Notes under the pieces: generated by a model
What the model was told of the DNA's origin: nothing
Seen by the model: the letters and a program-made list of their open reading frames with translations, nothing else
Databases searched by the model: none
Program-made: the position numbers and the translations under genes
Origin: Anniella stebbinsi
Lineage: Eukaryota > Chordata > Lepidosauria > Squamata > Anniellidae
Direction: 5' to 3'
Assembly: GCA_029215795.1 (NCBI GenBank)
Contig: JARDYH010000007.1
Coordinates: forward strand, 70,238,763-70,302,762
DNA length: 64,000 nt
Shown: positions 13,661 through 62,589 of the stretch, piece after piece
Layout: each line of letters begins with the position of its first letter
Position numbering within the stretch: position 1 is the first letter of the stretch

Positions 13661-14605
13661 AAGCACCCCAAGCCCAGATCCAATCCCAAAATGTGCCCAG
13701 ACTAAAACATGCCCAGATAAGATTCAAATGCTTATGTCTGACAGGCCCAATAATTCGGCAAGGGCTGTCGTATCCCTGGTTTCATTATCTGATTGAATGC
13801 AGCTTCAACAGCGCTAGAAGAGGGGATTCGGGCTGACGGAGCTTTCCAGTGCTGCCTCTGCCAAAGACTTGCTCGGCGGTCTTGGGCACATCACAATTCT
13901 TTCCCCTTCAATTCAAGATGGTGTAACAAGAATCTTAACAACCTCACAAAACTATGGTCAACTTTACAAAGTAAAGACGAATGAAATGTTGTGTGAAGGG
14001 CTGTTTAAATGCTAAGTATTTTTTTTAAATGAATTTATGTCTGTTGTCATTTCTTCTTTCTCCGTAACTGATAGAGGTACAGGAGCCCTCGAAGGCTTTT
14101 AATCTGCACCCGCACCCCCTTCTCTGCATGTGTGTTGCTGCTGCTGCTGCTGCTCACTCAAGTAAAAGGAGTCTGGACGGCGTGGACTCAGTCCTCACCT
14201 CCCTCCTTGCGCTCATCTGCCAACAAGAATGAGACAAATTGGAATGGTAGCAGAGAGAACAGCAAGTCTGAGTAGGTACAAGGGTTTTAAAAAAAAAACA
14301 TGAGTCCTGTTGGCTCTGGGCGCCCTATGTGGATGCCCATTTTGCAAATATGAATGCTGGTTCTGGCGCAGGTGCAGGAGAGCCACAAATGTCCATATAT
14401 GGAAGACAAGCAGAGCAGTCCTCACCAGTGCCCTGCCTGCCCCTTCTGATAACTGACGTGCAAATGGGAATGCGCTGAGCATGCATGACGGAAGAGAAAA
14501 GGACCAGGATGTCAGGGTAGTAGCAGGTATGCTGCACTTGCTTAAAACAAGTGAGTGGGCTGGGAAAGGCAGAAAGAGGGGGTGCATGTTTATATGTTAT
14601 GTTAT

Positions 14606-21959: not shown

Positions 21960-22035
21960 ATGATGGAGAGGTTCTTTGCTGTGGCTCTACTGCTTCTAGC
22001 TCTCGGTGTGGTTTGCGGCTCAACCACAGAAGAAG
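21960..22035 (+). CDS. CXCL17: CXCL17 exon 1 (signal peptide)
   Basis: The exon starts at the first of two adjacent ATG codons and encodes a short charged start (MMER), a leucine-rich hydrophobic core and a likely cleavage after VVCG. The donor is 'gaag|gtgaga' and the exon ends in phase 1. It is missing from simple ORF calls because it is only 25 codons long. Confidence 0.85.
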
Positions 22036-22417
22036 GTGAGAAGGAAAGAAAGAATCATAGAATCATAGAACAGTAGAGTTGGAAGGGGCCTATAAGGCCA
22101 TCGCGTCCAACCCCCTGCTCAATGCAGGCGTGGGAAAGGTACCCAGCCAGTGGGAAAGACAGTGGAGGCTGGTGGCTCCGATATCAGTGGGGTGGTGAAT
22201 CCGCTCCGGGTTTCAGTCAGAACCACAGAAAACAGATGGAGGAATGGAGGCAGGCAGGGGCTAGCACCCTAGAAGGGTGGGGGCTGTTTTTTTTCCATCT
22301 AGACTCTCCCCACCCCAGAGCCATCACCTACCAGCTGGGAAGGATCCGGCTGTTCTTTGAGATTATATTGAAATAGTTTGTAAACTGGCTTGGAAGAATT
22401 TGTATCCTGAAATGAGA

Positions 22418-22459
<42 letters not shown>

Positions 22460-22876
22460 AATTTACTACTACTGTGGTCAGGAATGCTAGGAATGTTTGG
22501 AAGGCACTAGGCTACCGACATGAACCTACCTGTGCACTATGCTCAGCATCTAAGGTCAGGAAGCTCGGAGGATGGCAACAAGGGAGAGGGCCTTCTCTGT
22601 GGTGGCCCCCCAATTATGGAATGATCTCCCCGATGAGGGCCGTCTGGCGCCAACATTATCATCTTTTCGGTGCGAGGTCAAAACTTGTCTTTTCTCCCAG
22701 GCATTTAACAGTTTAAGTTGAGTTTGAGTTTTTGGCCTGGCTGAAAGGTTTAAATTGTTTTAAATATTAGCTGTTTTATGTTTTATGGTTTAAAATTTTG
22801 TATATTGACTTTTAATATTCAATCATTTAATTTCTGTACGCCCAGAGAGCTTCGGCTTCGGAGCGGTATATAAATG

Positions 22877-22921
<45 letters not shown>

Positions 22922-25900
22922 GGCTGGAGAAAGTTGGAGCAGACAGCAAGTGGCTTGAGGGACCAACGTTCTAACAATAGGGCAGCTTCATGGGTTCATC
23001 CCCGAACCCTGCCCGAATAGTCCTGCAACACTTCTGAAAGGCTCTCTGGTTTGGACTTGGGGTGAGTCTTCCACAATAAAGGGGAACTTGCTCCCCATTG
23101 TCTGCCTTTATGAACTGAACATGATGAACTGGCAGTGTTATGGGGAGGGCACTGACATTGATAAAACTGTAAGGGAGAAGGCAAGCTCTAAGAAACATTG
23201 AGTTCAAGCTAGTACAGGCATGAGAGCCTCGGTGTGATGTGTTCCTGGCAGCCCATCCCCAAAATGGCATCTTGGCAGCAGGACCGCACAGCAGAATGCA
23301 ATAGATTTCCGAACCATACAAAGAGACAGGCTCAGATTCGCCCACAAGTCTCTTGGGTCTACAGCCACGCCCTCCGTCCAATCTTTTGATAAAAAAAAAT
23401 TGGACACCGAATGAGTAAAATGTTTAAACAGTTGTGTCAACAATTCTGATCCTTCTTTAGCACCCATGTTTCATTCCATCAATAGCTGGCTGCACCAACA
23501 AAATCTTTTCTTCTGAGATTTGCCTACATTCCAGTCATGGGGATAAGAATGCCCTCATCACTTCAAGTTGCCCTAGGCAAAAATTTAATTGGCACCACAT
23601 CATTGGGTGAGACTGGTCTTTCTTGTCCAGCATTCCTGTTTGTACAGTGGCCAACCAGATGCCAGTGAGAAGACCATAAGTAGGACATGAATGCAAGAGT
23701 ACCCTCATTCTTCCCAATAATGGGTACTGAAGGCATCATATAGCCATTAGGGATGTGTATTCTATTGTTAAAATGTACGACAACGATACGATATGCTCTT
23801 TATCGTGCATACGATTAACATTAACGACACGATGCAACTTCCTATGATAATCATCGGAGACGATAATTTTCAGCCCAATTATATCGGATTATCGGACTGC
23901 CATATAAATAAACCTATAACTTCTGTATTTTCAAAGTTACAGGCTTGAAACTTGGTCACAGTGTTTATGGGGTATGCCTAGGTATGTGTATGAAATTTGA
24001 GATCGATCCCTCCAACCCTCAATTTTATATGAATTTATTAAAGATCAGGTCAGAATGATAGCTCGCCACGTGCGTTCAGACCTGTCAAAAAGTTGCACGA
24101 TCTTTAATAAATTCATATAAAATCGAGGGTTGGAGAGATCGATCTCAAATTTCATCAAATGTCTAGCACATGTTGCTACACATATGTGCCAAATTTCAGA
24201 TCAATTGCTCCACCCTTGTATTTTATATGAATTTTTGAAAGATCGTGCAACTTTTGACCTGTCAGAACTTAAATGATCTTTAATAAATTCATATAAAATC
24301 GAGGGTTGGAAGGATCGATCTTAAATTTCATACACATACTTAGGCATACCCCATAAGCATTGTGACCAAGTTTCAAGCCTGTAACTTTGAAAATACAGAA
24401 GTTATTGGCATTTTTTTCTTTAAAAATCCAGCTCTATAGGGCACAATGGGGCTGCAAATTAAATATCGTATTTCCGATAATTATCATGAAGACGATATGA
24501 TTAACCTATGATATTATCAGAGATAATAATGTTTTTGGTCCGAAATTACGATAACGACAAAATACAATATTTTCTGGTGTGCACATCCCTAATAGCCATC
24601 ATGACCAGTAACCATTGATAGCCTAAGGGTGCAATCCTCTGTGTGTTTAGACAGAAAAAAAGTCCTGCAACTCCCAGCATCCCCTAGCCAGCTATGCTCG
24701 GAGTTGTAGGACTTTTTTTTCTGTCTAAGTGCTCATAGGATTACACCTTTATCCACCATGAATTTGTCAAATTTCTTCTTAAAGCCATCCAAGTTGGTGA
24801 CCATCATTACTACATTTTGTGGCAGTGAATCCCATAGTTTAACTATGAAGAAGTAAAGTGAGGCCCACTTCCCCCTACCCCAATCCCGAAGGCATGCATC
24901 AGAGGGGGCAATTTGTGTTATCTTCTGTAGGATTTTCCCTAAAAGCTTACCTCTTGAGTTAGGAACATAGGAACTTAAGAAGAGCCATGCTGGATCATAC
25001 CATTGTTAGCCTTCTCCAGGAATTGATCCAACCCTCCTTTTAAAGCCATCCAAATTGGTGGCCATCATTACCTTTTGTGACAGTGAATTCCATAATTTGT
25101 GCTCTGTGTGAAGAAGGACTTCCTTTTCTCTGTCCTGAATCTCCCACCAATCAGCTTCATGGGATGATCCTAGGTTCCATCCTCTCAGGCCTCCACTTGT
25201 CACGTCTGCTCAGGTGGGCCATTCCTGAGCGTGTGTGTATTTGTTTGCATATGAGTTTGTATAGTTGTGTTGCTCTTGAAGTTGATTACATGGCTAATTT
25301 CCCTTTTCTGTATCAGATGGAGGGCCCCTGTTTCACCACACGGAGCAGGAGCTGAGCAGATCTAAACGAAGCCTGTGGGGTTATGAACACTGCAAATGTA
25401 CAGGTGAGTCTCTTCTCCACCCTTGTGATTGGGAAAGGGAAACTGCGGAGGAATTCTGCCAAATTCTGCTTCCAGATGCTTCAATAGCAGCCAACTGGCA
25501 CCGTGGATGGTTTGTTATTTGGGGTGTGTCTTTCAAAAAGAGTTTGCCTTCCCTTACTGATACTTTACATAGTGTTCTGGGCTAGCCATTACTTAGAAGT
25601 CTCAAACCAAAGGGGAACTTTCCCTGTTGCTGCGCTCGAATTCAGGAACTTTCCAATGTGAAAAAGTGAGACCTATCTTAACAGCCTAAATTCAGAAGGC
25701 GACATTTAAGGAGAGGAGCAGTTGCTAGCCGCCCCCCCCCCCCCCCATGTGTTCAGATCACTTGCGGTTTTGATTAAGGCGCTCCTTCATTGCTGGCTAG
25801 CTTGCGAGTTCTTCACACCAAGGGTCAATTGATAAAAACAACAACTTGCAACAACACGTTACTGTGTGGAAAGCTCCTGCTCATTGTTCCAGTCCATCAG

Positions 25901-28845
25901 CCAGCCATGTCCTTCAACAAAACGCTCCATTCCATTCCACCTGGCACAACAGACTCTCAATATTCTGCAACTACTGAGCATGCTCAGTTTTCATTGGGCG
26001 GTTTTTGGTTCACCCCGTTTCCCGTTAGTCCCCTGCCCCAAAGATGTCTTAAGGACAGCTGGGAGAGGGCATGGCCAACCTGCCACTGCCCCGCTCTCCC
26101 TCCATATGATGTTAATCACATGATTTGGAATGCTAGAATAGGGCTATAAGGAAAGAGCGAAGGGGAGGGAAGAGGAAAGTTCTTCTAATGGCCAGGTTAA
26201 ATGGAAATAGGGCCGCTAGTGGAAGAGTCTCTCTCAGCTGAGCCGATGGTGTGGGCCCTGCTGGCCCATCTCCCCCTCTGCTGCAGCCAGGTGAAATGGC
26301 TGCTAATAGATCATGGCTAAGAGAAGGAAGGATCCTAATCCTCATTCATAATTGTGACTATGGATCCAGCATGGCATTCTGGATGAATTCAGAATATAAA
26401 TGTGTGGCCTTGCCTGGGTAGCAAAAAAGGAGAGAGAAGCGGTTCTCGGAATGCTGAGATACTTTATTAATTCACGCTCAATGCATTTTGGACTATGTGT
26501 TTTTTTTAAAGGCCTTCTTCAGGTGGTTGGTAAGAGAAGTCTGCAGAAAACTCTTAACAGAATGATAGTCTCTTGTGATATTCACTGGCGTGAATTAATA
26601 AAGTATCTCAGCATTCCGAGAACCGCTTCTTTCTCCTTTTTTGACCTAAGTGGATGCTCTCCTCCTTTTGGTTTTTCGTTTCTTGCCTGGATAGCACAGC
26701 TATGGAGAATGGGGAAACTGCCTTTAATACACCATAGAGAAATGGAAGGCAGTGGGGAGGGATAATTTTGCATGTGACCTGGCTTGTGTTGTGAGTCAGT
26801 TAAGACAGAGATGAAGAACAGCTGAGCCGGGGAGCGTTTGGGGCATGGCACTTCAATAGAAGTTGGCGGAAAACGGCTGGGCTTCAGGCCAGCTGATGCT
26901 AATTGCTCATCAATCCACGTCCCATAAAAGTCTGGCCAGAGCTCAGCCAAAGTGCTGAAAGCAACGACCATTTTGGATGTCTGTGCTTCTCAGCGCCATG
27001 CCTTTGATTCAAGCCTTTATTCTGATCCTTGGATTGTGACTCAACTATTCTCTGCGTGTTCCTGAAACCTTGGACTTGCCCGAACGTATCCTGACCGGCT
27101 TCCTGACTATGATTCAACGTCTTGCGATTCCAACACTGTTATCTAGACTTCAAACGGCAGCTTTGGCTTTTGACTGACGGACTGGATTACTGACCTCGGA
27201 CTTGGACTTTCCTAAGTGGCAACCTTGAATCATGACAGCTAGCTTGCATGAGTCATCTGGGCAGTTGACAGTATCTGGGGTGATGTATTAGTATGCCCTA
27301 GCTGGTTAATAGGGGGCTCTAAAGGGTCCTTCCTGCTCCCCAAATCCTGCAGCTGTCTTTCCCCATAACCACGCATACTCTCACTCACCCACTGATGGCT
27401 GATGTCATTTTAGGCTCACATAAACCCCAGAGGCAGAAGAGACATAAGCGTGTGTGTCCCTGTGATGGTATCAAGTTTCCACTGCCAGGTAAGAAAATGC
27501 CCCTAGGCATAGCTGATGATGAGACAAAGGATGAACAGGGCCTACATACACTCCCCTCCCTCCCGAGTGTAGGATGGGGTACCTAGGCAACTCAAAGTGC
27601 ATTTGATGGGAGGGAGGAAACACCACTCAGAACCCTACCTGGATACCTATCCTCACTCAGGTTGTCTACTCGGGTCATTCTCATCTCTGTAGGGCATGGC
27701 CCAGCCCCCCTGATCCATATCAAAATGACTTGTGGCTTTGATCAGACTGAGCATCATCTGTTTGGGGGTACAACAAGAAACACCCAGGCCATGTTAGGTA
27801 CAACATGTACTCCGCCCACACAGAGTGCGAACCAGCCAGGAGCATACTCAAATCCAGTTTTGTTCACAAATTCTCACCTCCAACCAAATGAGATCAAGCA
27901 AACTTTTTTAGCGCTCACCTTCTGATTGGCAGGACTTGCATGCATTTATGCATTTCTCAGATTGATATACTATTCTGTAAACCGCAAGAGCAGAAGCTGG
28001 TGGTTTGTCAGCTTTCGTGCAGTTTTGCTTCCATGCTAAAAGGTTGAAATGCCTCTCCCAAGGCTGAGCTACTGCCATTTTACCTATAAGCTGAAATATG
28101 GTAGTATCTTTGGCTCCACCCCCATTGCTTTCAGCCCTGCCCACCACTGGGATGCAGCCCCCAAGAGCTTTTCTGAAATTGAATTAGGGGGGTGTCATTA
28201 CTATACCATTTTGGCTGCTCGTTCTCTCAGATCCCCACTGCGGGGTGGGAGCAGTAAATCCCAACGGCAGGGGGGAGCGTGGGCTATCCAGTTGAAAAAG
28301 CTGCAGCGCTGGTAGTCATTCAGCTCATCAAGCCCTCCTCCTCCTTGCCCTCTGCCCTGCCTTCCCACGCTTCCCGTGATCTACCCTGGGCCTCGATCTG
28401 CCCCCAGCCTCAACCCAAAGTGAGGACACCACCAATAAAGGGAGGAAAGAAGGTGGTGACCTCAGAGCAAAGGAAAAAGTCAAGGTATGTCAGCCCTTTT
28501 AAGATGAACAGTTTCGGAGGGGAAAGCCAATGGTGGCTGCGTCATATAAACAATGCAGCGCCGCTGTGCAGCCAGAACGGGCTAACCAGGGCGTATAGAC
28601 AAGCCGGTCCCAGAAAGAAAGAGGATCAACACCCATGCTGTAAATAGTTATGAAAGAGACTGGACGGAAATTAGGTTCAGCCTCATGGAAGATTCAAAGT
28701 GGCTTGTCTTTTTCTCTCTCCTGTAGAACAGCCTCACCACCATCACCACCATGTGAAGACTCGGCAGCATCTGCACCATATTACACAGCAGTGCAAGACA
28801 TTCCTGACCCGCTGCTCTTTGAAGAAGCTCCAGATTCCATTATAG
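21960..28845 (+). CDS. CXCL17: CXCL17, mucosal chemokine-like secreted protein (four exons)
   Basis: Joining 21960-22035, 25317-25403, 27414-27488 and 28727-28845 gives 357 bases, 118 residues plus stop; human CXCL17 has 119. All splice sites are GT-AG and all three introns are phase 1. The protein has a hydrophobic signal peptide (residues 1 to about 20), a dibasic RSKR at 40-43, and a strongly basic, His-rich body. Its six mature cysteines fall as C51-x-C53, C69-x-C71 and C102-x6-C109, the human pattern (ECEC, QCPC, C-x6-C). The C-terminus is Ile-Pro-Leu, close to human Leu-Pro-Leu. In mammals CXCL17 is secreted at mucosal surfaces, has antimicrobial and myeloid-recruiting activity and has been linked to GPR25. 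LIPE follows downstream in the same orientation, as in human. Overall identity is low, so the call rests on architecture, cysteine spacing, the C-terminus and synteny. Confidence 0.88.
22050..22135 (-). repeat. CR1 3' tip
   Basis: 'aatcatagaatcatagaaca' followed by 'ggaaggggcctataaggcca' is the reverse-complement CR1 terminus. It lies just inside CXCL17 intron 1. Confidence 0.85.
22157..22235. repeat. Foldback MITE half (GGAGGCTGGTGGC family)
   Basis: 'agtggaggctggtggctccg' through 'gggtttcagtcagaacca' is present, but the second arm is absent. Confidence 0.75.
22419..22459. repeat. (GAT)n microsatellite
   Basis: About 13 GAT units lie in CXCL17 intron 1. Confidence 0.9.
22490..22920 (+). 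repeat. L2 LINE 3' end with (AAT)n tail
   Basis: The segment shows the L2 ORF end ('FSVVAPQLWN'-like frames, broken), the 3' UTR motif 'cccagagagcttcggcttcg' and 'gcggtatataaatgataa', then about 14 AAT units. It lies in CXCL17 intron 1. Confidence 0.85.
23748..24591. mobile_element. Non-autonomous hAT-type element with 8-base target duplication
   Basis: The 844-base element has inverted ends 'tagggatgtg' and 'cacatcccta', and is flanked on both sides by the 8-base duplication ATAGCCAT (23,740-23,747 and 24,592-24,599). Eight-base duplications and this type of end are hallmarks of hAT transposons. The interior is a multi-level inverted repeat: 'tttatatgaatttattaaag' and 'gatcgatc' blocks recur in both orientations. 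No transposase frame is present. Confidence 0.88.
24628..24752. repeat. Small palindromic element inside CR1
   Basis: 'gtgcaatcctctgtgtgttt' to 'gtgctcataggattacacc' forms inverted ends. The interior is the perfect inverted pair 'agacagaaaaaaagtcct' and 'aggactttttttctgtct' around 'cccagcatcccctagc'. Confidence 0.65.
24960..25200 (-). repeat. CR1 LINE 3' fragment
   Basis: 'cataggaacttaagaagagc', 'aaagccatccaaattggtgg' and 'cccaccaatcagcttcatgg' are in the same order as the copy at 38,305-38,705. Confidence 0.75.
25317..25403 (+). CDS. CXCL17: CXCL17 exon 2 (first CxC pair)
   Basis: The acceptor is 'tctgtatcag|atgg' and the donor 'acag|gtgagt', with phase 1 on both sides. It encodes residues 26-54, including the RSKR dibasic site and the CKC pair near the end. 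Only this frame links exon 1 to exon 3 without a stop. Confidence 0.87.
25410..26395. other. CXCL17 intron 2, no other gene seen
   Basis: The sequence contains a 15-base C run (25,732-25,746) and no recognisable transposon. Open frames on the + strand (for example the 119-codon frame at 25,790-26,149) have no family features and lack exon signals. Confidence 0.5.
26400..26698. mobile_element. Truncated relative of the 20,690-21,063 inverted element
   Basis: The left arm ('gagatactttattaattcac' to 'ccttcttcaggtggttggta') is followed by a partial right arm ('tgaattaataaagtatctca') that lacks the hammerhead-like part, then a terminal 'ctcctccttttggtttttcg'. It lies in CXCL17 intron 2. Confidence 0.6.
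26990..27240. repeat. Possible element fragment rich in GACTT/GGACT words
   Basis: The segment carries repeated short words such as 'ggacttggactttcc', 'ttgactgacggactggatt' and 'cttggacttgcc'. It looks like a transposon 5' region, but no class can be assigned. Confidence 0.3.
27414..27488 (+). CDS. CXCL17: CXCL17 exon 3 (second CxC pair)
   Basis: The acceptor is 'cattttag|gctc' and the donor 'gccag|gtaaga', with phase 1 on both sides. It encodes residues 55-79: a very basic run (QRQKRHKR) followed by VCPCD, which matches the CPCD block of human CXCL17. Confidence 0.88.
27490..28726. other. CXCL17 intron 3
   Basis: I recognise no transposon here. Around 28,500-28,640 is a GC-richer block with 'tgcgtcatataaacaatgca' that may be repetitive. 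No alternative coding exon is supported. Confidence 0.45.
28727..28845 (+). CDS. CXCL17: CXCL17 exon 4 (His tract, last two cysteines, C-terminus)
   Basis: The acceptor is 'tctctcctgtag|aaca'. It encodes residues 80-118: six consecutive histidines (83-88), further histidines, then CKTFLTRC and a basic tail ending KKLQIPL followed by TAG at 28,843. The C-x6-C spacing and the Pro-Leu end match human CXCL17. A longer frame that reads through this exon in another phase is spurious. Confidence 0.9.
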
Positions 28846-29180
28846 ATATATCCGCTCAACAAGAGTTTTATATCTGTGGCTAATCACCTCTTCTTGGAGC
28901 AAAATACTTCATTGTGCATCTATTTCAGCCTCAAAAAGCAGCACGTTTGCTCCCAAAATGTTGAACTGGAATTTTTTTCAATGCCCTAAAAATGACTACA
29001 ATCCAATTTCACATGTTTATTTGGCTAACATTTAACAAAACTTCTAAAAGGATGACATGTTGCTTTAATGTGTTCTATTAATATAACAAAAGTGTTTCCA
29101 ATAGTTAAAACTGTGTGAACAGAAATATTTGATGTTGATGGTGGGAATGGCAATAAAGCACACCTGCTGGATTTTCCGTG
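28846..29180 (+). promoter_or_regulatory. CXCL17 3' UTR and polyadenylation signal
   Basis: The AT-rich 3' UTR follows the stop codon. A canonical AATAAA lies at 29,152-29,157, about 310 bases after the stop, and a T/G-rich stretch follows ('gattttccgtgttatatttc'). This is the likely end of the transcript. Confidence 0.65.
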
Positions 29181-41526: not shown

Positions 41527-42039
41527 ATGGATTCCCGGCCGCTGTTCCAAACGCTGCACATGCTGGCGGAAGACAACACCGCCTTCTTCCGGAACAGCAC
41601 CAGCGAGACGGGCCAGCGCTTCCTGGCGACCTTCACGGCCATCCGGGAGCACGCCCGGTGCCTGGAGCCGGTGCTCAGCCACTTCTCCACCATCTACCAC
41701 ATCTTTGACCTGGACGAGCACACGCCGGCCAACGGCTACCGCAGCCTGGCCCAAACGGTGCGCTGCTGCCTGGCCCACATCGTCCACAAGAGCCGCTACG
41801 TGGCCGCCAACCGCCGCAGCATCTTCTTCCGCAGCAGCCACAACTGTGCCGAACTGGAGGCCTACTGCACCGCCTTGACCCAGCTCCGGGCCCTGGTCTA
41901 CTTGGCCCAGCATCTCCTCACCCAGAACCAGCCCGGCTACCTCTTCAACCTCGAGGAGCGTGGGCTCTCGGAGCACTTCCTGCGGGAGTACGTCTCCATG
42001 CAGAAAGGCTGCTTCTACGGCCGCTGCTTGGGCTTCCAG
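41527..42039 (+). CDS. LIPE: LIPE coding exon 1
   Basis: The exon begins at 41,507 after 'ccctctcgcag', with the ATG at 41,527, and ends 'ggcttccag|gtgaga', phase 0. It encodes 171 residues that align with human HSL from MDLRTM through [11 protein letters not shown]. The conserved TPANGYRSL and [10 protein letters not shown] blocks are clear. The 197-codon antisense frame over this exon is a shadow. Confidence 0.97.
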
Positions 42040-45000
42040 GTGAGAGTGCCGGGGGGCTGGGGGCTCTTGGGAGGACAAAAGGCAGGAGGCTCAGTGGGGT
42101 ATGGAGATGCGGGGCTTTCTGGATGCTGGAAATGGGCCTTTTTGCAGGGTCTGCCTCGGACCGTTCAACAATATTTGTTTCCTTAAACTATTTTGATACC
42201 CGCTTACCAGCCCAAATATACCAGCTTCCATATAATCAGTAAAACCAGACCCGACCCGACCTGGAGGCTCACGATCCAAAAAGACACGGCACACGAGGAA
42301 AAGGGAACGGGGAAGAGATTGGGGGAAAACCTTTCAGCGGGGCTGCGGAACAGTCCCGCTCCCCCTCTCGTCTCCCTCGGCGCAGCCCCGCTGGGATGGC
42401 TGCTCGTGGTGAGGGAGGAGGCGTCTTCGTGGAGGAGGGTCTTCAGCAGGGCTAGAGAGTTCAACCTTCCCTAGCCTGCTGCCCTCCAGATGTGCGGGAG
42501 TGCAACTCCCATAATCCCCAGCTGGCAGGTTTTGGAAGGCTGAGGTAGTGAATAGCCATCCCTGCACGTGGGCCTTCTCTGCCCACAGGTCTCCTGGTCT
42601 CAGATGAACGTGGCCCTTTTCTCTTGCTGCGCTTCCAACGGCCACCTGGAATGTCTGCATTGCACCCCCTTTCTCTCAGCCTTCCTAGCTCCCAGCCCCT
42701 CTCTTTGATGAAGCCTGGGACTGGATTTGGCATAACTGTCGGCCTGGCCTCTCCCACTGTCTCCACCGCTCCGCCTACACTCTTGACTGCATGTTCCTTG
42801 GGGCGGAGACCTGTCTTTTGCCTACCTTCCTCTGCAGTGTAGTTTTTATTGATCTGATGCCGTGATGCTGCCGTGGAAGTCAACAGTCTAGCAATGATAA
42901 TCCTCAGGAAAGCCTGAGGCATCCCGGAAAAGGCCGGCACCCTCTCCTCCCAGGAAGCAAGCTCTGTGCACGGCTGAACTCACATTGTTCTCTGCCAGCC
43001 TCGAGGGGGCCTCTGGCCTGATTTCCCCAAATGGAACCTTCCGAGTTTTTCCTGAGCGAGTCCATGAGGCGAGAGCAGTTTGCCAGACGGGGCCTCCCCA
43101 CAGCGGACGGCCTGCCCTGGCCTTCCCCTCGCCTCTTTCCACCTTTCCACGCAGGCTGCAGCCTTGGTAATGTGACCCTGAGCAATGCATAATGGGATCA
43201 CGCAAGTCCCTGGAGCTCTGCATCTCCTTCTTCTCCCCCCTTCCTCCCCCCCCCCCCCCGAGGCTCTTGCCCCGTCAGGGTCCCGTCTCTTTGGAAAAGG
43301 AGCTTCCCAGCTGAGTGTGGATCTCAGTTGGAGAGGGGGCAGGGAGGGGCCGTAGCTCAGAGGTGAAGCATCTGCTTTGCATGCAGAAGGTCCCAGGTTC
43401 GATCCCCGGCGTCTCCAGGTAGGGCAGGGAAAAAAACCTGCCTGAAACCCCGGGGAACTGCTGCCAGTCAGTGTCGGCAATACTGGGTTAGATGGTCTGG
43501 CTCAGTATAAGCAGCTCCCTATGTTCCCGCAGCTGTGTCTCTGGCCCCATCCTTCCCAGGTGGCTTTGTGCATCCCACTCTTTGCAACGATGAGACAGCT
43601 GCACGCTGCCTTGAAAGGGGTCTGCATCACCTTTGCACCTTTGGCCCAGCCAGGAGAGCCGGGCCTTTGCTCTTGGCCCCGGGTGGGAGGAACTGATGAA
43701 CAGCCGGCACACCCTGTGAACCGTCCCCCTCTCTTTGGCAACCCTGGCACCGGATCTGTGCTGCCCTCTGGGCGAGAAGCTGCAGTCCCGGAAGGCGGGA
43801 GGAACGCCACGTCCTGCTCCCCAGCCTTGATGTTGCTCTTTTGGCTCACAGTTTGCACCCTCGATCCGGCCCTTCCTCCAGACCATCGCCATCAGCCTCA
43901 TCTCCTTTGGCGAGAACTACAAGCGTCACGTTTCTGGCATTGGTGAGTAGCCGGGCCCAGGTGTGCATTGATTCACGTTAGCGACGCCACACCTGCGTTG
44001 CTTTCGCGGTGTACCTGTTCGTCCTCCTCTTCCCATAATCCGTGGCTGCCTCGGGAGCTCTGCCTTCCCAGGTTGCATTGCCGGCCAGTGGGGACTCGTG
44101 CCGTTTTCCCCCACATTATGTGTACAGTTGTTGTTGTGAAAGGACAAGGGCGTTTGCCTCCAAGGACAGGGAAATTTGGCAGAGACACGTAACGGGAATC
44201 GTTAGACGGCTGTGTGTGTGTGTGTTTAAATCGGCTTGATACCTAAACACAAGTAGATTGCCCCAAGCCAGGAATGACGTTGTCTGCTCTTGGCAGCTTG
44301 CCTCATGCCAGGAATGAGTTTTTACCGTGCATCTTTACATACCTGCCCTACCCACCACCACTTGCAGTAACCCCAGTGACTCAGTAGGGTCATTATTTAG
44401 TTGCAGGGTACCCTCTTTGGCTTCCTTGCCTCCTCCTAGCAATACACCTTTCCTTCCCATGCACCCTGGGCAATATGGTACCCTTGCTCGCTGCCGTGGA
44501 TTTTACTTCCCTCTTTCTCTGCACCAGAGAGGTGGAGGGATGTGATGCAGGGTGGGTGGCCCTCTTCCTTACCCCTCAGAGCAGAAGCCTCCTCTCGAAC
44601 GGCGCTGATCATCCCTCTTTGATCTCTCTTGTCTCCCCTCTGCTGCAGGGGTGGCCGCTAGCTCGCTTTTTACCGGCGGGAAGTTTGCTATCGACCCTGA
44701 GCTGCGAGGGACCGAGTTCGAGCGCATCACTCAAAACCTGGACGTGCACTTCTGGAAGAGGTTCTGGAACCTCACCGAGATGGGGCTGCTGTCTGTGAGT
44801 CCCTGCTGGAGGGGAGGCGAGAGGGGGCCGGGAGGCGACGTCCGCACCTGTCCAGGGAAGATCTGGGGGAGGAAGAAAAGGACAGCAGGGAGGGAAGGGG
44901 AATCTGGGGCGGGATCCTGCCAAGCGTTTGCGGGGAATGGGAATGGGGAAGCGAGAGGTAAAGCCGGCGGGGGGCTTGTAGTCTGGCAAGGAGACGGGGT

Positions 45001-48145: not shown

Positions 48146-51100
48146 CATCATCAACAACAACAACAACATCCACACCAACATCCAGAAAGCAGTCATACTT
48201 AAAACATGCTCAATTGTAAGGAAATTCCTGAATCTGTAAAAGACAGCGTGACTTGGCAAAGCCCATCATGTCTGTCTAGAAAAACCGCCACGAGCGAGAA
48301 AGAGTAATAATAATAATAATAATAATAATAAATTTATTTATTACCCACCTCTCCCTCTGGATTGAGGCGGGGAACAGCATTGAATACAAAAATACTATAA
48401 AATACATAAAACTGATTAAAAACATATAAAACTCATTATTAAAATAACAGTCAAACATCTTAAAATTCAATTGGGTAGGCTTGCCGGAAGAAATCAGTCT
48501 TTATGGCTTTCTTAAATTCAGAGAGGCTGTTAAGTTGACGGAACTCTCCCGGCTGAATCACACCATCAGTCTGCCTAGCCCCATGTGGCTGGTTCTGATA
48601 AGCAGCCCCTCCTTGTCTCTGGCGGAGGTCCCATTCCCAGCCATGCTTCCTGAGATGATGATGATGATAATGATTTATTTCATTTCTATATCACCCAATA
48701 GCCAAAGCTCTCTGGGTGGTTTACAGTTCCCAAGACAATAAAACACAGCACTAAAAATTTAAATATCCAACATTTAAAACAATTAGGTGAAAACAGTTTC
48801 AATGAACTACTAGACCTGTTTAGGTAACTGGCAGAGATGGCCCGTTGCGTATGCCATTCAGTGCCTGGCAATAGAGGGCAGTCTTAACCTGGTGCTAAAA
48901 GGATGGCAGTGTTGGTGCTGGGCGGTCCTGAGCGGAGAGCTTGTTCCACAGTCGGGGAGGGAAGAGCGGGGAAAAGAAAGGAAATTAAGGAGGCTGATCA
49001 GCAGGGCGGGTGGGAAGGCCCTGCTCAGCCCTCTCTTCTCCCAGTGGAGGGGAAGATCAACAGCTCCTTCTTCTTTCCCACAGGGTCATGGTGTCCATTA
49101 GCCCTGCGGGGTGGGTGGGTTCCCAACCGGAGCAGGCCCTGGTGGAATAAATTTCATTTATTTGCTGCACTTTTAAGCCCTCCCAATAAGTGAAGTTCTC
49201 TGGCTGGCGTACTGTTCTCCTCTTGTTACGTCCCCAAAAGTGGCTCGCTAGTTGCCTGTGGGAGGCCTGCAGGTGGGGGGCCTTGTTTTTTTTTTTTGTC
49301 CTCCAGCATCCGGTATTCAGAGGAATTTTGCCTGTTTGACCCCCCTGGTTTCTTCCGTCCCCTGCGGGTCCTTCTGACTCCTCTCCACCCCTCGGCAGGT
49401 TCCACAGCACAGAGGGTGTGCCTGGCGGGAGACAGCGCCGGCGGCAACCTATGCATCACGGTCTGCATGCGAGCGGCTGCCTTTGGGATCAAGATGCCGG
49501 ACGGGATCATGGCGGCATATCCGGTCACCCTCTTGAAGGTGTCGGCCTCACCCTCCCGCCTCCTCACCTTGCTCGACCCGCTCCTGCCTCTCAGTGTCTT
49601 GTACAAGTGCCTCAGTGCCTATGCCGGTGAGGGCATCTCTGCAGCGGCGGCCGGGGCATCACCTTCGGTCCCGTGGAGGGGGGGGAAGGGAAATGGCAGG
49701 GTTGTGTGCCGGGCGGGGGGGGGGGGTGGCGTGGCGTGGCGTGGAGATGAGCAGGACTTGAACCGGGGGCTTCCATCGGGAGGCTGGACAAGCCCTTGAG
49801 AGATTGGATCGAAGGATCAGGAAGGGGTTATCCCAGCAGGATGGATTCAAAAGGTATTTACTCCCCATATGGTTGAGGAAACTCAGGGTCTGGGCGATGG
49901 AGTCCGAGGCGCCTCTCTCAAGCCGGGAAGGGAAGTAAGAAGGGGAGTGGGAGCATTTGGCTGGTATTAAGAAAAGGGGGATTAGACACACAGAGACACA
50001 CACGCCAAGGGGAGCCAGGACATTACAGGCATAGAGAAGATTGCGGTGTGTCTTGGTTTGCTGCTGTTGCTTTTAAAGAGATGGGTGGAGTCTTGGTGCT
50101 ATGGGGGAATATTTATGGGCCTAAATGCTTCCCCCCCCCATCTTTGTGCCCCGTATCCAAGGGATGGATCAAGAGTCGGAAGACTTCACCCTGGAGAGGC
50201 TCAGCCCCGTCAATATGGTGCGCAGGGACACGAGCCTTCTCTTCCAGGACTTGCGCCTGAGCACCTCGGCCTTCTTTGGCTCCTTGCTTGAGAACACAGG
50301 CAAGATCAACGGGGCGGAGGGAGCACCTGGTAAGAAGCCGCCTCTCCTCTGTCCGGCGCCGCCATCCTCTTCTCGCCTGTCCTTCCCTGCCTTCTTCTCA
50401 CCCACCTTGTCTTCGCAGGGCGCGGCCCCTTCTCGTGGTGCCTGCAGGGCTACTTCAGGCGGCCCGTGGCCCAGCTGCTGTCGGCGCTGTCCCTGGTGTG
50501 ACTCTTCCGGTCCCAGGGCCTGTCCCTTACTAACCCAGCAGCTGGTAGGAGCCGCCCCCTGCCCGTAAGGCATGCGCTGCTGCTTTAGATGAGATGAAGG
50601 GGTCGTCGCTGCTGTTCCTTGCTTCACAGACCCGGGCGCGGGTGCTGAAGCTGGCACGGGTGGGCAGATGCGATGGCCTGGCAGGGCTCGTGGACGGAGC
50701 TGGCTGGCTTAGGATGGTGTGGTTTTTTTCATGAGCTCTGCATGGTATTTGTGGAGGAGCTAAATAACGCTTTATATAGAGCGAATCCAACGTTTGGCAA
50801 CTGCCCTGTTCGTATCATCCAGCTGGAAACCTCAAATTCCACGACCGAGCTGATTTTTTTGCAAATTCGGCATGTTACGTTACGGTTGCATTTGCTCTTT
50901 CAACAACTTGGGGAATGAGATGAGAGAGAGAGAGGGGGGGCACAACGGAGGGTGTTTTTTTGAAGAAGTGGCATTTCCCACTTTGCTATGCAAAACAGAC
51001 TTATCTACTTCCTCCTGGGGAGCAAATCTCTCCCTGCCCTGATCTTGCCTTGCTGTAAGAGGCAGAGCATCGACGGAGCTCCCTTGTCTACTACTTATTT

Positions 51101-54100
51101 TCCTGACTAGCTTGCACCTTTCCCGCATCTTTTCCTCCACGACACAGTACAATACACCAGCCTCTCCCCCAACCAGATTGAGGAAGGCTGCAATATGCCA
51201 CATTTACCTCAGCCTCCCATTTTCTAAGACTTCAGCAGAAATGACCGGGAGGTTCTCCCCCGCCCCGCAACCGCCAGCTGCAGCCCTGAGGTCTAGAAAC
51301 TTGCTTTCCTTTTCTTTCTCCTTTGCTTCCATCTATCCCCTCCGTGTAGAAGCGGAGATTTTCAGAATTTCGTCCCACTTTGCTGCAGTCTGTGTTTCAG
51401 GCCGCGTTCCTTCCTTTCCCCAAGCGGGAGCAGCTTTTACAGCTGGCATAGCTCTGTGCCATTGTGAGAGGCCCGCCACAAAAGCGGCTGGCACTGCTTG
51501 GCACACATTCACAGCCTGGCACAGAGCGTGGAGGAGATTGCCTTGTAAACCCAGCACTGGCTCTTCCCCAGGGCAGGGAAGTGCAAGTGTTGGGAAGTGA
51601 GCTGTCCAAGGAGGTGGGGTGCGTTGACCCAGTCATGGCCAAGAATATTCATCTCCTCATAGGGGTGGGGGTCCTAGCACAGGCTTTCTATCTGGAAGGG
51701 CCCAGCTTCAGTCCTTGGCTTCTCCAGATAAAAGGAGAGCGAGACTCTGATTCTACAAGCAATTTAGAACATAAGAAACCTAAGATTAGCCGTGTTGGAT
51801 CAGACCAAAGGTCCATCTCGTCCAGCATTCTGTTCACACAGTGGCCAATTAGCTGTTGACCAGGAACCCACAAACAGGACACGAGTGCAACAGCACCCTC
51901 CCACCCATGTTCCCCAGCCACTGGTGTACATAGGCATACCTCCTCTGATACTGGAAGTAGCACATAGCCGTCAGGACTAGTAGCCATCGATAGCTTTTTC
52001 CTCCATGAATTTATCCAGTCCCCTTATTTAAAGCCATCCAGATTGGCGGCCATCACTACTTTCGTTTTGCATGCCACACTCTGTTCTGGATATTTGGAGA
52101 AATCTGTTTTTGGTTTATATTTGTTTAGGAACTGGCAAAGAACAGTGTGGCAGCAAGTAGGACTGAGGGTGGGGGTGAGGATTAGTTTGGGAGGTCCTGG
52201 CAGTAGGAAAACAAAGGCAACCCTCCTGGTCTCCAAGTAAGTTGGAGTCACTCTGTCCCCTGCAAGCTGGAGCCTTTCACGACAACCCCCAGGGATCTCT
52301 CCTAGAGGAGGGAACCCACACCCAGGTATCGCATTCTGTATGCGGGATCAGGTTTTGCTTCAGGGAACAGAAGATCAACCTCTCTGGTTGTGGCAACAGA
52401 AACGAAGGGGCAGGCTTGGCCCTGATCACCCAGTAAGGACCCAAAGTCGCAGTTTAGTTGGGGACGGAGGAGGAGGAGGAAAGAGTTTGGATGGCTCTCC
52501 CCCAGCCCAGCACCCTGCAGGTGCGTTGGAATGCCACTCCAACACACCTGGGGGGTGAGCTAGGACCTGGCCTGAGAGCCGAGGGAGGACGGGGGCTCTG
52601 AAGCAGGCAGAGAATGCTGGGATCCGTGGAAAGAGAGAGTGCGAGGCAGCAAGAGAGGGGGGGACCCAGCGAGGAAGAAACAGGGAGCTGTGATGAAAGA
52701 GAGCTGGCACTGATTTCCTCTTGCACCCTCCCCCCCCCCCCCCCGCCCCGGCACGCAGACACCATGAGGAAAAGCATCTCGGAGGTGGGTCTGAAGTCCG
52801 AGCCGCTCTCGATTTACAAAGACTCCCCCAAGAGCCAGACCTGCCAGAACCTGTCCTGTACCTCCGACGGCCCACCGGACCCAAGCCAGGCCCCTGGCGG
52901 AGAAGCCCAGCCCGGCTTCTTCCTGAGTGATGGCGAGTGCAAGGCCACCTCCTTGGGCAGCAGTATCAACGGCATGGCCTTTCCCGATGGCTTTCAGCCC
53001 CTGCGCTCCAAACAGCCAGCCGCGTGCCTGCCCCTGGAGCTGTCGCCCATCGTCAAGAACCCGTTCATGTCGCCGCTGCTGGCCCCAGATGGGATGTTGA
53101 AGGGACTTCCGCCAGTCCATATAGTGGTGAGCTGCGGGGCTTGTGGGGTGGGCGGGTGGGAGGGGCGCAGAAACATCCCTTTCAGCAGCTTGCGTGTAAG
53201 GAAAGAGGCTGGAGTGAGAAGACAGCTGCTGTGTCGGGCTTGACCAATACGGTCCATCTAGCTTGGCATCCTGCCTCCCGAAAGCAGCCAGTCGGATGCA
53301 CCAGAGAGATTTGTCCACAGAGCATGATGGGAATATCCTTTCCCTGTTGTTTGTTTTCCCCGTCATCGGAGAGGTGCTGTCCCTGTCAATAAGCAGGTTT
53401 CAGTCCAATCTATCAAATTTATGGCTCTTGATAGATCAATCCGGCCGCTATAGCGGGAAGGAGTTTCGTACTGAGGCGGGAGCACTCTCTGGGACCTCTC
53501 TTTTTGGTGCTTTCGTTTTGTGAAACTTGTGCACAGGTCGTACCAGGAAGAGAGTCAGGAGAGATCACACAGGAGGTTGTGATCTCTAAGGGACTTCAGC
53601 TATTCAGGATTGTAACCGGCACTCTCTGTCTCTCGCCTCTCAACAGGCTTGTGCCCTTGACCCCATGTTGGATGACTCTGTGATGTTTGCCCGACGGCTG
53701 CAGGCCATGGGGCAGCCAGTGACCCTGAGGGTGGTGCAGGACCTGCCCCATGGCTTCCTTAGCCTATCACAGCTGTGCCGCGAGACGCGCCAGGCGTTGG
53801 CCATCTGCACGGAGCTCATCCGGAGCATTTTGGTTCCCGAAGATCCGGCCTCTCCACAGGACCCCGCTGCCGACGCCTCCCTCCGGAAGCATCGCAAGCT
53901 GGAGCGGACCTTCCATGCCGGGGCTGCCACCAGCCAGGTGGCCAACCCCGCCCAGGAGAACAGCACTCACGCCGAGCAGGAGGAGCTGAACGGGGCTGCT
54001 ACAGAGAGCGGCGCTGCCCCCAGCGCCAAGGACCAAACGCCACCCAGCACTCAGGAGCATCAGAAGCCAGAGAGCGCTTCCCCTGGAGCCCAGCAAAGCA

Positions 54101-54213: not shown

Positions 54214-55115
54214 GCCCCTCCGGGACCCCTTGGTTTGAGACTGTGTGGCATGGCTTCCTTTTGCAGTGGGAAATCCCTCTTTGGTGCTTTGACTCTGCGT
54301 TGTGATGATGATGCCCGAGCACAGTGGCCCCAGGGCTCAACACCCCCCAACACACACCCCGATCACAGGTGGGGCCCCTGTTACGACCAAAGCCCGGGGG
54401 CAGTGGGGGGGACACTTGTCCCATATTATCCATTCCTCCCACCTCCTGGAATACTGTTTTTATACACATTTGTTGTTTTTTTTAAAAAATAAAATAAAAT
54501 GTGTAGAACTCTGCAGCCAATATCTGCTGGTGGTCTCAGAGTTTGTGCACCACCACCCCCTCTCTCTCTCCCCCTCCCCCCTCCTTCTCCTTAAGCAAAA
54601 CACTCCAATGTTACCTGAACACCTTTGGGAAGGTCCCGTGTCACGATGCGGGACTTTCTGAGCCCACTCTTGGCCACAGAGAGCACAAATACTAGCCTCC
54701 CTTCCCTTCAGGGTGGCAGGGGGTCGGTCCTTCCAGCACTGCCCGACGAGCTCTTAAAAGCACCGTGGACACCTCTCACTTGCACCACGTATGTGAACAG
54801 CCGCTGTCCTGTCCCATCGCTAGGGGAGACAGCCCGAGCACTGTCCAGTATTAGCCTTCTTAGGAGGAATGCTCCGGCTCGTACTGCGACCTTCCCCCCC
54901 CCCCAATCTGCTTCCTTCCCCCCCCGCCCCGATCTCATCCTTTCGCCTTTTATTGCTGCTGCTGCTATGAACCAAACAGGAGGGGAGTTGAGAGGAGAAT
55001 GGGGGCTTCTTCCCCCCCCCCCCCGAGAAGGGCTGTGGTATTCCCTCTCCACCCTTTTCTTGGGGGCAAAGGGGACAGACTATTTTTGTAAATAAAAGCC
55101 TATTTGATTTGGATT
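54214..55115 (+). promoter_or_regulatory. LIPE 3' UTR with two polyadenylation signals
   Basis: AATAAA occurs at 54,488-54,493 (overlapping a second at 54,493-54,498) and again at 55,091-55,096. Use of the first gives a 3' UTR of about 300 bases, and of the last about 900. C runs at 54,895-54,904 and 55,012-55,024 lie between them. Confidence 0.6.
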
Positions 55116-55143
55116 GAAGTATCCTCTGTATTTGGAATCCAAG

Positions 55144-55144
<1 letters not shown>

Positions 55145-55192
<48 letters not shown>
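55145..55192. repeat. (GT)24 microsatellite
   Basis: An uninterrupted GT tract lies just beyond the distal LIPE polyadenylation signal. Such tracts can adopt Z-DNA. Confidence 0.95.
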
Positions 55193-55196
<4 letters not shown>

Positions 55197-55199
55197 GAG

Positions 55200-57700: not shown

Positions 57701-57719
57701 TGATGCACATTGAGGGAGG

Positions 57720-58460
57720 TGGATTCCTAACTTCCCATGTGTGGTGATGGGTTCTGAACTGGTGGTGAATGACAAGGAAAGGGATTTTGGAATTGCAGTA
57801 GATAGTTCAATGAAAACTTCAACCCAGTACACCATTACTGCTATGAAAAGGCAACTTCCATGTCAGGGATCATTAGGAAACGAATAAAACATAAAACTGC
57901 CAATATCACAAGATTGTTACACAAATCTATTGGTGTGATCACGTTTGGAGTACTGTGTGCAGTTGCAGGAAAGGGCAAGGAAAACGATTAAGGGGCTGGA
58001 GCAACTCTCCTTATGGGGAAAGACTGCAATGTTTAGGGGTTTGTAGCTTACAAAAAAAAGCAAATATGTAGAGACATGATAGACATGGGCAAAAGGTGTG
58101 GAGAAAGTGGAGAGGGAGCAGGTGTTTTCTGACTCTTGTCGCAACATTCCAGTGAAGCTTGCTTTCACTGGAATGATTTCAGGGAGATTCAGGACAAATA
58201 AGAAGTTCGTCAAGGTAACGCATATGGAATTTGCTACAAGATGTGGTGACAGCTGCCAGCTTGCATAACTTTAAAAGATTAGACAAATTCATGGAGGACA
58301 AAGCTGTCAATGCCCACTACACCCGATGGCTATGTACTGTTATGTGCATGTCCCCTGGCTTTTGGGTTTACCCTAGAACCGTGTTTGGGCACCGTGGGAA
58401 GCAATTTGAACTCGATGGGCCTTTGGTCTGTTCCAGTGCTGCTCTTAGGTTCTTAAGGCA
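57720..58460 (+). repeat. Old CR1 LINE copy
   Basis: 'tttggagtactgtgtgcagt', 'gattcaggacaaataagaag' and 'atgggcctttggtctgttcc' appear in CR1 order, with many small gaps. Confidence 0.7.
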
Positions 58461-58925
58461 GGATAGGCTGTGAGTAACAGGAACTGGTCCAAGACTGCCA
58501 GTGACTTTCATGGCTAAGCAAGTATTTGAACCCAAGTTTCCATCTACCAAAACTATCCCACACTGGATCTCATGGTATCAGAAGGTACTACAAGCTCTGG
58601 AGAACTAAGACTTGATATGATCTTGAGTAGGAACTTGCTCCAATGTTTGGAAATTGTGAGTGACTGGATTTCTTAGCGGGCAACCAGCTGGTTGACAATG
58701 CAGTCATTGTGGTCTGATAGTATTTAAGAGCATCAAGCTTCAGCTGCATTATAGGAACAGTAATATTGGCCTACCCCACATGGCTATTGTATGGAATATG
58801 AGATAAACTGTGTGAAGAGCTTTGAACACTAAAACCCTTCCCTCAACTCTCACCTGTTAGCAGCCATTACATGAGGCTAGAGTAGAAGGAGTGAAAGGAA
58901 GTAGAGCCATCCACTGGTTCTGCTG

Positions 58926-59262
58926 AGAACATAAGAAGTGTCAGGCTGGATTAGACCAAAGGTCCATATACTCCAGTATGCTGTTCATATAGTGTACAGT
59001 GGCCAACCAGCTGTCGACCAGGAACCTACAAGCAAGACATAGATGCAACAGCACCCTCCCACCCATGTTCCCTAGCATCTGGTGCACACAGGCTTACTGC
59101 CTCTGCTATTAGAGGTAGCACATAGCCATCAGGAGTAGTAGCCATTGATAGCCAGGAATTTATCTAACGCTTTTTCAAGCCATTCAACTTGGTAGTTGTC
59201 ACTACATCTACATCTTGTGGTAGCGAAGAGACCTCCAACTTTCGGCTACTCTTCTTCCTGAA
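58926..59262 (-). repeat. CR1 LINE 3' region
   Basis: 'gaacataagaagtgtcaggc', 'aaccagctgtcgaccaggaa' and 'gtagccattgatagccagga' match the reverse CR1 order. Confidence 0.8.
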
Positions 59263-59334
59263 CAGCATGCACTCTAGCTGTTCCCTATAAAAACATAACT
59301 ACGTATGCTTTTTTCCTCTTCCTTGCCAATTTTT

Positions 59335-59463
59335 CCTTTTGTGCCGTGTCTTTTAGACTGTAAGCCAGAAGGCAGGGACTTTTTCTTATTTATCTTTGTA
59401 AGCGACCCTGGGAGCGCTTTTGGCTGAGGAGTGCAGTAAAAACAAAAGTCTTTTAAATAAATA
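59335..59463 (+). repeat. LINE 3' tail
   Basis: 'ttagactgtaagccagaagg' through 'aagcgaccctgggagcgctt' with a terminal AAATAAATAAA is a LINE-type 3' end. Confidence 0.6.
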
Positions 59464-62400: not shown

Positions 62401-62589
62401 TGTTCCTGAAAGATAGTAAAGATGATGCCAACCAAATATATTGTGTGATGCCACCATAGAATATAATTTCCATGTTGAGCTTAAATGAGCAGCCTTGCTG
62501 TTTTGTTCTGGGCCATTTTATAACAAAGGAAAGTGTACTGTAAACTTGTCAACTTAAAAAATTTTTTTTAAAAAGCCTCTGTGGGACAA

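Follow-up and report, generated by a model that had tools for sequence, protein, structure and literature searches.

A probable CXCL17 ortholog upstream of LIPE in a sauropsid genome

The window analysed here, a stretch of 64,000 nucleotides, carries on its plus strand four coding exons, all short (75-119 nt), a candidate polyadenylation signal beyond them and, 12.7 kb downstream of the exons, parts of LIPE (Table 1), the hormone-sensitive lipase gene beside which human CXCL17 is placed. The genome also contains a corneous beta-protein cluster, which identifies it as that of a sauropsid; this protein family is not known outside sauropsids. The four exons join into a coding sequence of 357 nt, equivalent to 118 amino acids and a stop codon, and all three introns are of the GT-AG type and in phase 1. 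The four-exon gene model of the initial annotation, with its junctions at 22035/25317, 25403/27414 and 27488/28727, was thus confirmed on the sequence. The zebrafish CXCL17 gene likewise has four exons (PMC12905490).

Table 1. Coordinates of the features of the CXCL17 locus, numbered from the first letter of the window
Feature	Position	Strand	Description
CXCL17 coding exon 1	21960..22035	+	predicted signal peptide MMERFFAVALLLLALGVVCGSTTEE; 76 nt, donor GTGAGA
CXCL17 coding exon 2	25317..25403	+	N-terminal part, furin-type site RSKR, first CXC pair (CKC)
CXCL17 coding exon 3	27414..27488	+	overlapping furin-type sites RQKR/RHKR, second CXC pair (CPCD)
CXCL17 coding exon 4	28727..28845	+	His/Lys/Arg-rich stretch, C-x6-C, C-terminal Ile-Pro-Leu, stop
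Candidate polyadenylation signal AATAAA	29152..29157	+	307 nt past stop codon; sequence match only
LIPE N-terminal coding part	41527..42042	+	Pfam HSL_N E=9.3e-58; PDB 8zvq E=7.5e-66
LIPE catalytic-domain part	49395..49631	+	HSL residues 411-489
LIPE C-terminal part	53638..53865	+	HSL residues 686-761

Among the 478 GT sites between 20 and 30 kb the donors of exons 1, 2 and 3 rank 4, 1 and 3, and among the 661 AG sites of the same interval the acceptors of exons 2, 3 and 4 rank 4, 122 and 1; five of the six splice sites are hence within the top four of their kind over 10 kb, and the acceptor of exon 3 is weak by its rank. Exon 1 was the top candidate among exons running from an ATG to a phase-1 donor up to 12 kb upstream of exon 2, in a list defined by hydrophobicity and donor cut-offs whose eight rows comprised three variants of exon 1 and five candidates in a single ATG repeat. 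This exon rests on its signal peptide, splice donor and phase, and alignment gives it no support. When the exons were searched against the entire genome (1.89 Gb), the sole significant match of each was itself; a repeat-derived or multi-copy origin was rejected, the nine other matches all having E-values of 0.15 or worse.

The N-terminus of the predicted protein is hydrophobic, with small residues at -3/-1 of the candidate cleavage sites. Of its seven cysteines C19 lies inside the signal peptide, and the remaining six, at positions 51, 53, 69, 71, 102 and 109, lie in the mature part and follow the order CXC-CXC-C-C, so that the 118-residue secreted protein with a six-cysteine layout anticipated from the exons is borne out in its length, its predicted signal peptide and its cysteine order. 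The mature chain is basic (pI 9.6), exon 4 encodes a run of six histidines, and there are three furin-type RX[KR]R sites, RSKR43 and the overlapping RQKR/RHKR67. Three rules have been set for recognizing CXCL17 (PMC12905490), and the reptile protein displays the features named by all three: 1) it has a predicted signal peptide and fewer than 200 residues. 2) Its mature part has six cysteines. 3) It ends in Ile-Pro-Leu, a form of the C-terminal Xaa-Pro-Yaa motif with large aliphatic residues.

To assess homology we used human and mouse CXCL17, the letters of which were checked against the Pfam family PF15211 (177.8 and 164.2 bits, respectively). Spliced alignment of both queries with the whole window, on both strands, in six runs and blind to the exon model, recovered exons 2-4 with exact borders in five runs. 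In the sixth, a local alignment of the human query, exon 4 was again exact, exon 3 was recovered at its donor end only, and exon 2 was absent; the borders of exon 4 were exact in all six. Exon 1 was never picked by the aligner in these six runs, and two spurious exons (14541-14550 and 25020-25082) appeared in its place in five of them. The local spliced scores were 107.0 for the human and 120.6 for the mouse query, as against maxima of 82.4 and 74.5 over 300 block-shuffled windows (one strand each). Scrambled versions of the human query (n=400) scored 64 on average and 86.6 at most on the real plus strand. A Gumbel distribution fitted to the local scores of the shuffles yielded one-strand p-values of ~9e-6 (human) and ~8e-7 (mouse). 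Pairwise scores of the mature protein were 92 with human and 100 with mouse, and 2000 shuffles each reached no more than 65 and 62. Spliced and pairwise statistics thus both establish sequence homology to mammalian CXCL17, at a low identity of 31/112 aligned residues to human (~28%) and 32/112 to mouse. The PF15211 model scored the mature part at 8.2 bits (E=5.6), under its cut-off of 27, and was absent at E<=1 with the full-length protein; this sub-threshold score is a limit of the profile's reach and no biological feature. A search of the PDB with human CXCL17 returned nothing at E<=0.01.

A second copy of CXCL17 in the window was rejected, as scrambling of 25300-28850 left best local scores of 51.7-74.7 on both strands with human, mouse and averaged queries. 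The highest of these (74.7, mouse query, minus strand) is just over the mouse-shuffle maximum, and its alignment strings together pieces over 52 kb and falls within the range of the scrambled queries. The score of 152.6 that the reptile protein itself reached in this scrambled window is due solely to exon 1, which the scrambling had not covered.

On the plus strand the order is CEACAM-type Ig exons, CXCL17, LIPE and a cornifelin-like gene, and the human order is CEACAM1, CXCL17 and LIPE/CNFN. The proposed place upstream of LIPE in the same orientation was verified; the N-terminal LIPE part is identical to hormone-sensitive lipase (8zvq) at 109 of 172 aligned residues. The CEACAM-type Ig exons, which here stand as the upstream neighbour, lie 49-70 kb upstream of exon 1, and short-exon genes between them and exon 1 would escape the search; in the upstream flank this search covered with Pfam 88 of the 94 plus-strand ORFs among 192 in total (>=82 aa), leaving out six plus-strand ORFs, including long retroelement-like frames, and all 98 minus-strand ORFs. 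The cornifelin-like gene was located 21.5 kb past the window end by tblastn and spliced alignment. Cornifelin was not found inside the window, where the best local scores were 59.7 and 59.9 against shuffles (n=100) that averaged 52 and peaked at 66.6, and a whole-genome search for the PLAC8 family returned one match, on contig C1, and missed the cornifelin locus. In zebrafish, cxcl17 has cnfn, pafah1b3 and ceacam1 in its vicinity, and this setting is described as similar to the human one (PMC12905490). Outside LIPE the window ORFs scanned with Pfam gave nothing relevant: all 102 ORFs of >=66 aa in 1-21.9 kb yielded three single weak matches (E 0.0045-0.01), all 57 of >=75 aa in 28.9-41.4 kb matched no family, and all 94 of >=48 aa in 54.5-64 kb yielded two RVT_1 and one weak DUF3165. 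The scan of 42-54.5 kb covered four ORFs, and nine further window ORFs had no match. Elsewhere in the same genome an intact GPR25 frame with no internal stop occurs at C4:63612527-63613570 (44% identity, E=7.6e-84; runner-up match 3.0e-48).

The reptile protein shares with mammalian CXCL17 its size (118 versus 119 aa), signal peptide, six mature cysteines in the CXC-CXC-C-C order, CPCD and C-x6-C motifs, nine residues past the last cysteine, Pro-Leu end and basic C-terminal half. It departs from the human protein in the Cys2-Cys3 spacing (16 versus 23) and the Cys4-Cys5 spacing (31 versus 26), and from the mammalian proteins in its His6 run and its three RX[KR]R sites, of which human and mouse have none. 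Compared by its published description, zebrafish Dr-CXCL17 (zgc:158701; PMC12905490) is similarly encoded by four exons near cnfn and ceacam1, secreted and basic, with CXC-CXC-C-C and an Xaa-Pro-Yaa end; however, it is described as lacking significant overall similarity to mammalian CXCL17, with which the reptile protein aligns significantly. Zebrafish Dr-CXCL17-like (si:dkey-112a7.5), a GPR25 agonist, is also secreted and has six cysteines and an Xaa-Pro-Yaa end, but its cysteine order is CXC-C-CXC-C and its chromosomal neighbourhood is different (PMC12905490).

The observed gene structure and flanking genes, the homology with mammalian CXCL17 and the intact GPR25 frame are best explained by an intact single-copy sauropsid CXCL17 ortholog, probably still at its ancestral site, with the CEACAM genes on one side and LIPE-CNFN on the other, and acting by a putative GPR25 mechanism, a reading to which we assign a probability of roughly 0.88. 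The identity put forward in the initial annotation is thereby supported by the spliced-alignment statistics, the cysteine layout, the C-terminal motif, the neighbourhood on both sides and the GPR25 frame, and its interpretation as a whole was largely right. The most likely role, predicted from these sequence features, is chemoattraction at mucosal surfaces, with the C-terminal tripeptide as the activator of GPR25. Epithelial cells would secrete CXCL17 once the signal peptide is removed, the basic His-rich C-terminal half would favour its retention on glycosaminoglycans at mucosal surfaces, and the terminal Ile-Pro-Leu would enter the GPR25 pocket on lymphocytes, thereby attracting these cells.

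Alternatively, the gene could be a true CXCL17 ortholog that is not, or is no longer, a GPR25 agonist and whose main role in reptiles, as a cationic and His-rich protein, is antimicrobial or GAG-binding. Consistent with this are the His6 run, the antimicrobial activity named in the title of a work cited by PMC12905490, and the findings that human CXCL17 binds GAGs, modulates CXCL8 responses and has little classical chemokine activity (PMC10628517). However, the reptile protein keeps the Ile-Pro-Leu end, the fragment that GPR25 requires and the MAS-related receptors do not (PMC12905490), and the genome keeps an intact GPR25 frame, and we consider this alternative quite unlikely. It is much less probable still that the likeness arose by convergence, with a small secreted, cysteine-rich gene of other descent in this neighbourhood acquiring CXC-CXC-C-C and a Pro-Leu end independently; the low identity and the assignment of the fish proteins by motif, position and activity (PMC12905490) might suggest this, but the similarity is significant and collinear along the mature chain, the C-terminal spacing is that of mammalian CXCL17 and the position upstream of LIPE is the same. 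A chance chain of open stretches and splice-like sites, assembled by the reader to look like CXCL17 where there is no gene, would fit the short exons, the weak exon-3 acceptor, the unaligned exon 1 and the Pfam score below threshold, but is rejected, as 0/300 shuffles and 0/400 scrambled queries reached the real score, and is further opposed by the blind recovery of the exon 2-4 borders, the ranks of the splice sites and the expected neighbours on both sides.

Canonical CXC chemokines are also small and secreted and carry a CXC motif, but they have four conserved cysteines as opposed to the six of reptile CXCL17. A canonical chemokine was rejected here, as no chemokine family appeared in the Pfam results and none among the best 60 of 133 PDB matches, which were mostly antibody chains matched via their His tags. 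CXCL8 is such a four-cysteine case (PMC10628517), and CXCL17 is not homologous to canonical chemokines (PMC10792014).

The mammal restriction on which the initial annotation built its claim of novelty was indeed still in print in 2024, when CXCL17 was described as confined to placental mammals (PMC10792014), but that claim and the dating to before the mammal-reptile split have been overtaken by the functional fish CXCL17s published in January 2026 (PMC12905490), which already date the gene to before the fish-tetrapod split. Because sequence similarity is gone, the fish genes were recognized from their motifs, their position and their function (PMC12905490). No report of a reptile CXCL17 was found in the literature searched; what is new here is a sauropsid CXCL17 that is still alignable with the mammalian protein and that carries three furin-type sites which the human and mouse proteins lack. 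As it aligns with mammals, follows the three rules and lies in the same neighbourhood, the reptile gene provides a sequence link between fish and mammalian CXCL17. It supports a single ancient CXCL17-GPR25 pairing throughout the vertebrates and offers a template for finding CXCL17 in birds, turtles, crocodiles and amphibians.

A furin-type cut at RHKR67 may yield a four-cysteine form in which the GAG-binding stretch is retained along with the activating tail. We tentatively raise the possibility, though we think it rather doubtful, that sauropsid CXCL17 is a proprotein, in which cuts at RSKR43 and RQKR/RHKR67 would strip the N-terminal part together with the first CXC pair, freeing a four-cysteine, His-rich, metal-/GAG-binding fragment as the active GPR25 agonist. 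If so, the four-cysteine form of CXCL17, which is disputed in mammals, would be revived as an ancestral processing step, and the furin-type sites make this form testable.

The gene model rebuilt from the sequence comprises four exons separated by phase-1 GT-AG introns, with a CDS of 357 nt encoding a protein of 118 aa that displays: 1) a hydrophobic signal sequence at its N-terminus; 2) six cysteines in the mature part (residues 51, 53, 69, 71, 102 and 109), with a seventh, C19, within the signal peptide; and 3) a C-terminal end of the form Ile-Pro-Leu. The exons, intron phase, length and six mature cysteines proposed in the initial annotation are thus borne out. Ranked with weights of the general vertebrate consensus, the donors stand in gene order at 4, 1 and 3 among the 478 GT sites of window 20-30 kb and the acceptors at 4, 122 and 1 among its 661 AG sites, and an AATAAA is found 307 nt downstream of the stop. 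By eye, intron 1 also holds an AT-rich stretch with inverted motif copies (window 23750-24600), perhaps a non-autonomous transposon.

Coordinates of the features discussed (G000, source genome assembly; C4, C7 and C8, its contigs)
Feature	Location	Strand	Basis
CXCL17 exon 1	window 21960-22035, 76 nt	+	rebuilt from sequence
CXCL17 exon 2	window 25317-25403, 87 nt	+	rebuilt from sequence
CXCL17 exon 3	window 27414-27488, 75 nt	+	rebuilt from sequence
CXCL17 exon 4	window 28727-28845, 119 nt	+	rebuilt from sequence
Exons bearing furin-type sites	window 25317-25403, 27414-27488	+	RX[KR]R pattern
Five immunoglobulin-like exons	G000:C7:70190486-70211454	+	simple pattern match
Cornifelin-like (CNFN) gene, three exons	G000:C7:70324267-70325702	+	spliced alignment
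GPR25-like open frame, intact	G000:C4:63612527-63613570		search with human GPR25
Corneous beta-protein (PF02422) cluster	G000:C8:69872212-71200177		Pfam matches

The relationship to mammalian CXCL17 emerges from a spliced protein-to-DNA aligner run blind to the gene model over both strands of the entire 64 kb, taking human CXCL17, mouse CXCL17 and an average of the two as queries in local and end-to-end modes (6 runs); the Pfam CXCL17 model recognizes the human and mouse queries at 177.8 and 164.2 bits. Five of the six runs recovered exons 2, 3 and 4 at borders identical to those of the model; the sixth (human, local) recovered only exon 4 and the terminal part of exon 3. In local mode the human query scored 107.0, the mouse query 120.6 and the average 111.6, and the top local scores in 300 shuffled windows (1-kb blocks, dinucleotides preserved) were 82.4, 74.5 and 72.0 respectively; scrambled human queries on the real plus strand reached at most 86.6 (n=400), human CXCL17 reversed scored 70.2, and Gumbel fits gave single-strand p of ~9e-6 (human) and ~8e-7 (mouse). 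Likewise, the mature proteins align pairwise with scores of 92 (human) and 100 (mouse), where 2000 shuffles for each comparison peaked at 65 and 62, and 31 of 112 aligned residues of the whole protein are identical in human and 32 of 112 in mouse. The Pfam CXCL17 model is not listed for the full-length protein at E<=1 and falls below the cut-off on the mature part (8.2 bits, E=5.6), where the sub-threshold alignment is collinear across model positions 11-89 of 89. Because exon 1 was selected in none of the aligner's 6 runs, five of which placed two spurious small exons there, it rests on hydrophobicity, a strong donor and phase; it is the first of 8 candidates passing the cut-offs in the 12 kb upstream of exon 2, three of which are variants of exon 1 and five lie inside one ATG repeat.

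In the assembly searched (1.89 Gb, 91 contigs, the window being C7:70238763-70302762) the sole significant match of each CXCL17 exon is itself (E 4e-18 to 2e-6), nine further matches all having E of 0.15 or worse; hence the gene is present in one copy and is not part of a repeat family. The genome is non-mammalian, as had been assumed: all 51 above-cut-off matches of PF02422, weak one by one (best 38.9 bits), fall on C8, all but one within 69.87-71.20 Mb (50 matches). These are corneous beta-proteins, a family not known outside reptiles and birds, so that the cluster marks a sauropsid. LIPE follows CXCL17 on the plus strand, as first annotated, with an HSL_N domain (E=9.3e-58), an N-terminal part identical at 109 of 172 aligned residues to the hormone-sensitive lipase 8zvq, and further parts at window 49.4 and 53.6 kb. 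Between its coding parts, on the same strand, lies a tRNA-Ala (TGC) gene or tRNA-like element (window 43346-43417), and downstream of LIPE two ORFs have reverse-transcriptase matches (window 54500-64000). Beyond LIPE, 21.5 kb past the window end, a cornifelin-like gene with an in-frame ATG 9 nt upstream of its aligned start attains spliced scores of 297-300 with human CNFN, the one PLAC8-family member compared, where 100 shuffles of the window averaged 52 and peaked at 66.6. A whole-genome PLAC8 family search gave one match, on C1, and missed the cornifelin-like locus, possibly owing to its division among exons.

On the other side, the five immunoglobulin-like exons lie 27-48 kb upstream of the window start and 49-70 kb upstream of exon 1; 9 of 88 upstream plus-strand ORFs match Ig_3 and 9 of 88 V-set, two sets that may overlap, and other long open frames there resemble retroelements. 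The single exon tested ranks carcinoembryonic antigen (E=1.2e-24), titin (1.8e-21) and CEACAM1 (2.6e-18) in the PDB, which suggests that this exon is of the CEACAM type. The order CEACAM > CXCL17 > LIPE > CNFN on one strand is that of human. PMC12905490 places zebrafish cxcl17 in the vicinity of cnfn, pafah1b3 and ceacam1, an arrangement it likens to the human one, and LIPE is depicted flanking the CEACAM locus of reptiles and birds in PMC13278318, the main text of which does not mention CXCL17.

The reptile gene is a new representative of a known family. Its presence agrees with the earlier suggestion that a non-mammalian CXCL17 dates the gene further back; the claim to novelty lapsed with the fish genes of PMC12905490 (January 2026), presented in that paper as the first CXCL17 in non-mammalian vertebrates. 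The mammal-only rule is therefore no longer overturned by the reptile gene, which is well suited to linking the mammalian and fish genes. The main text of that paper mentions no reptiles, lizards, amphibians, birds, synteny or LIPE, and none of the open-access PMC papers listed in literature searches reports on reptile CXCL17.

A search with human GPR25 (113 of 607 first-look candidates scored) recovered a frame without internal stop that is 44% identical across residues 5-357 (E=7.6e-84), the runner-up among 115 matches having E=3.0e-48; among the best 60 of 292 matches to solved structures, two GPR15 entries match it best. W104 and K274 of zebrafish GPR25 are predicted in PMC12905490 to contact the ligand Pro and C-terminal carboxylate, and the Trp in YWCFGEG and Lys in ALKWAL of the reptile frame look like their counterparts. 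PMC10628517 reports that human CXCL17 attaches to glycosaminoglycans, implicates motifs of its C-terminus in this binding, and finds little in its structure or function that resembles a chemokine. The reptile protein retains the basic C-terminal half (K, R or H at 24 of 65 residues from 54 onward) and the Ile-Pro-Leu tail; judged from sequence, it would best be read as a mucosal chemoattractant retained on glycosaminoglycans, whose C-terminal tail would act on GPR25. A single-copy sauropsid CXCL17 in its ancestral neighborhood together with this predicted GPR25 role is jointly the best explanation, to which we assign a probability of nearly nine in ten.

The reptile protein differs from human and mouse CXCL17, which have no RX[KR]R sites, in possessing three furin-type sites of this form (residues 40-43, 61-64 and 64-67), a number that none of 20,000 shuffled versions of the mature chain, taken from residue 22, attained (mean 0.066), although the latter two overlap and are therefore not independent. 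These two fall in the Cys2-Cys3 interval; a tribasic site there in human CXCL17 is the proposed source of a 64-119 form, which PMC10628517 disputes in favor of monomer and dimer. Exon 4 carries a natural run of six His, with His at 9 of its 39 residues; by composition it could bind metal ions, and the untagged protein might bind nickel resin.
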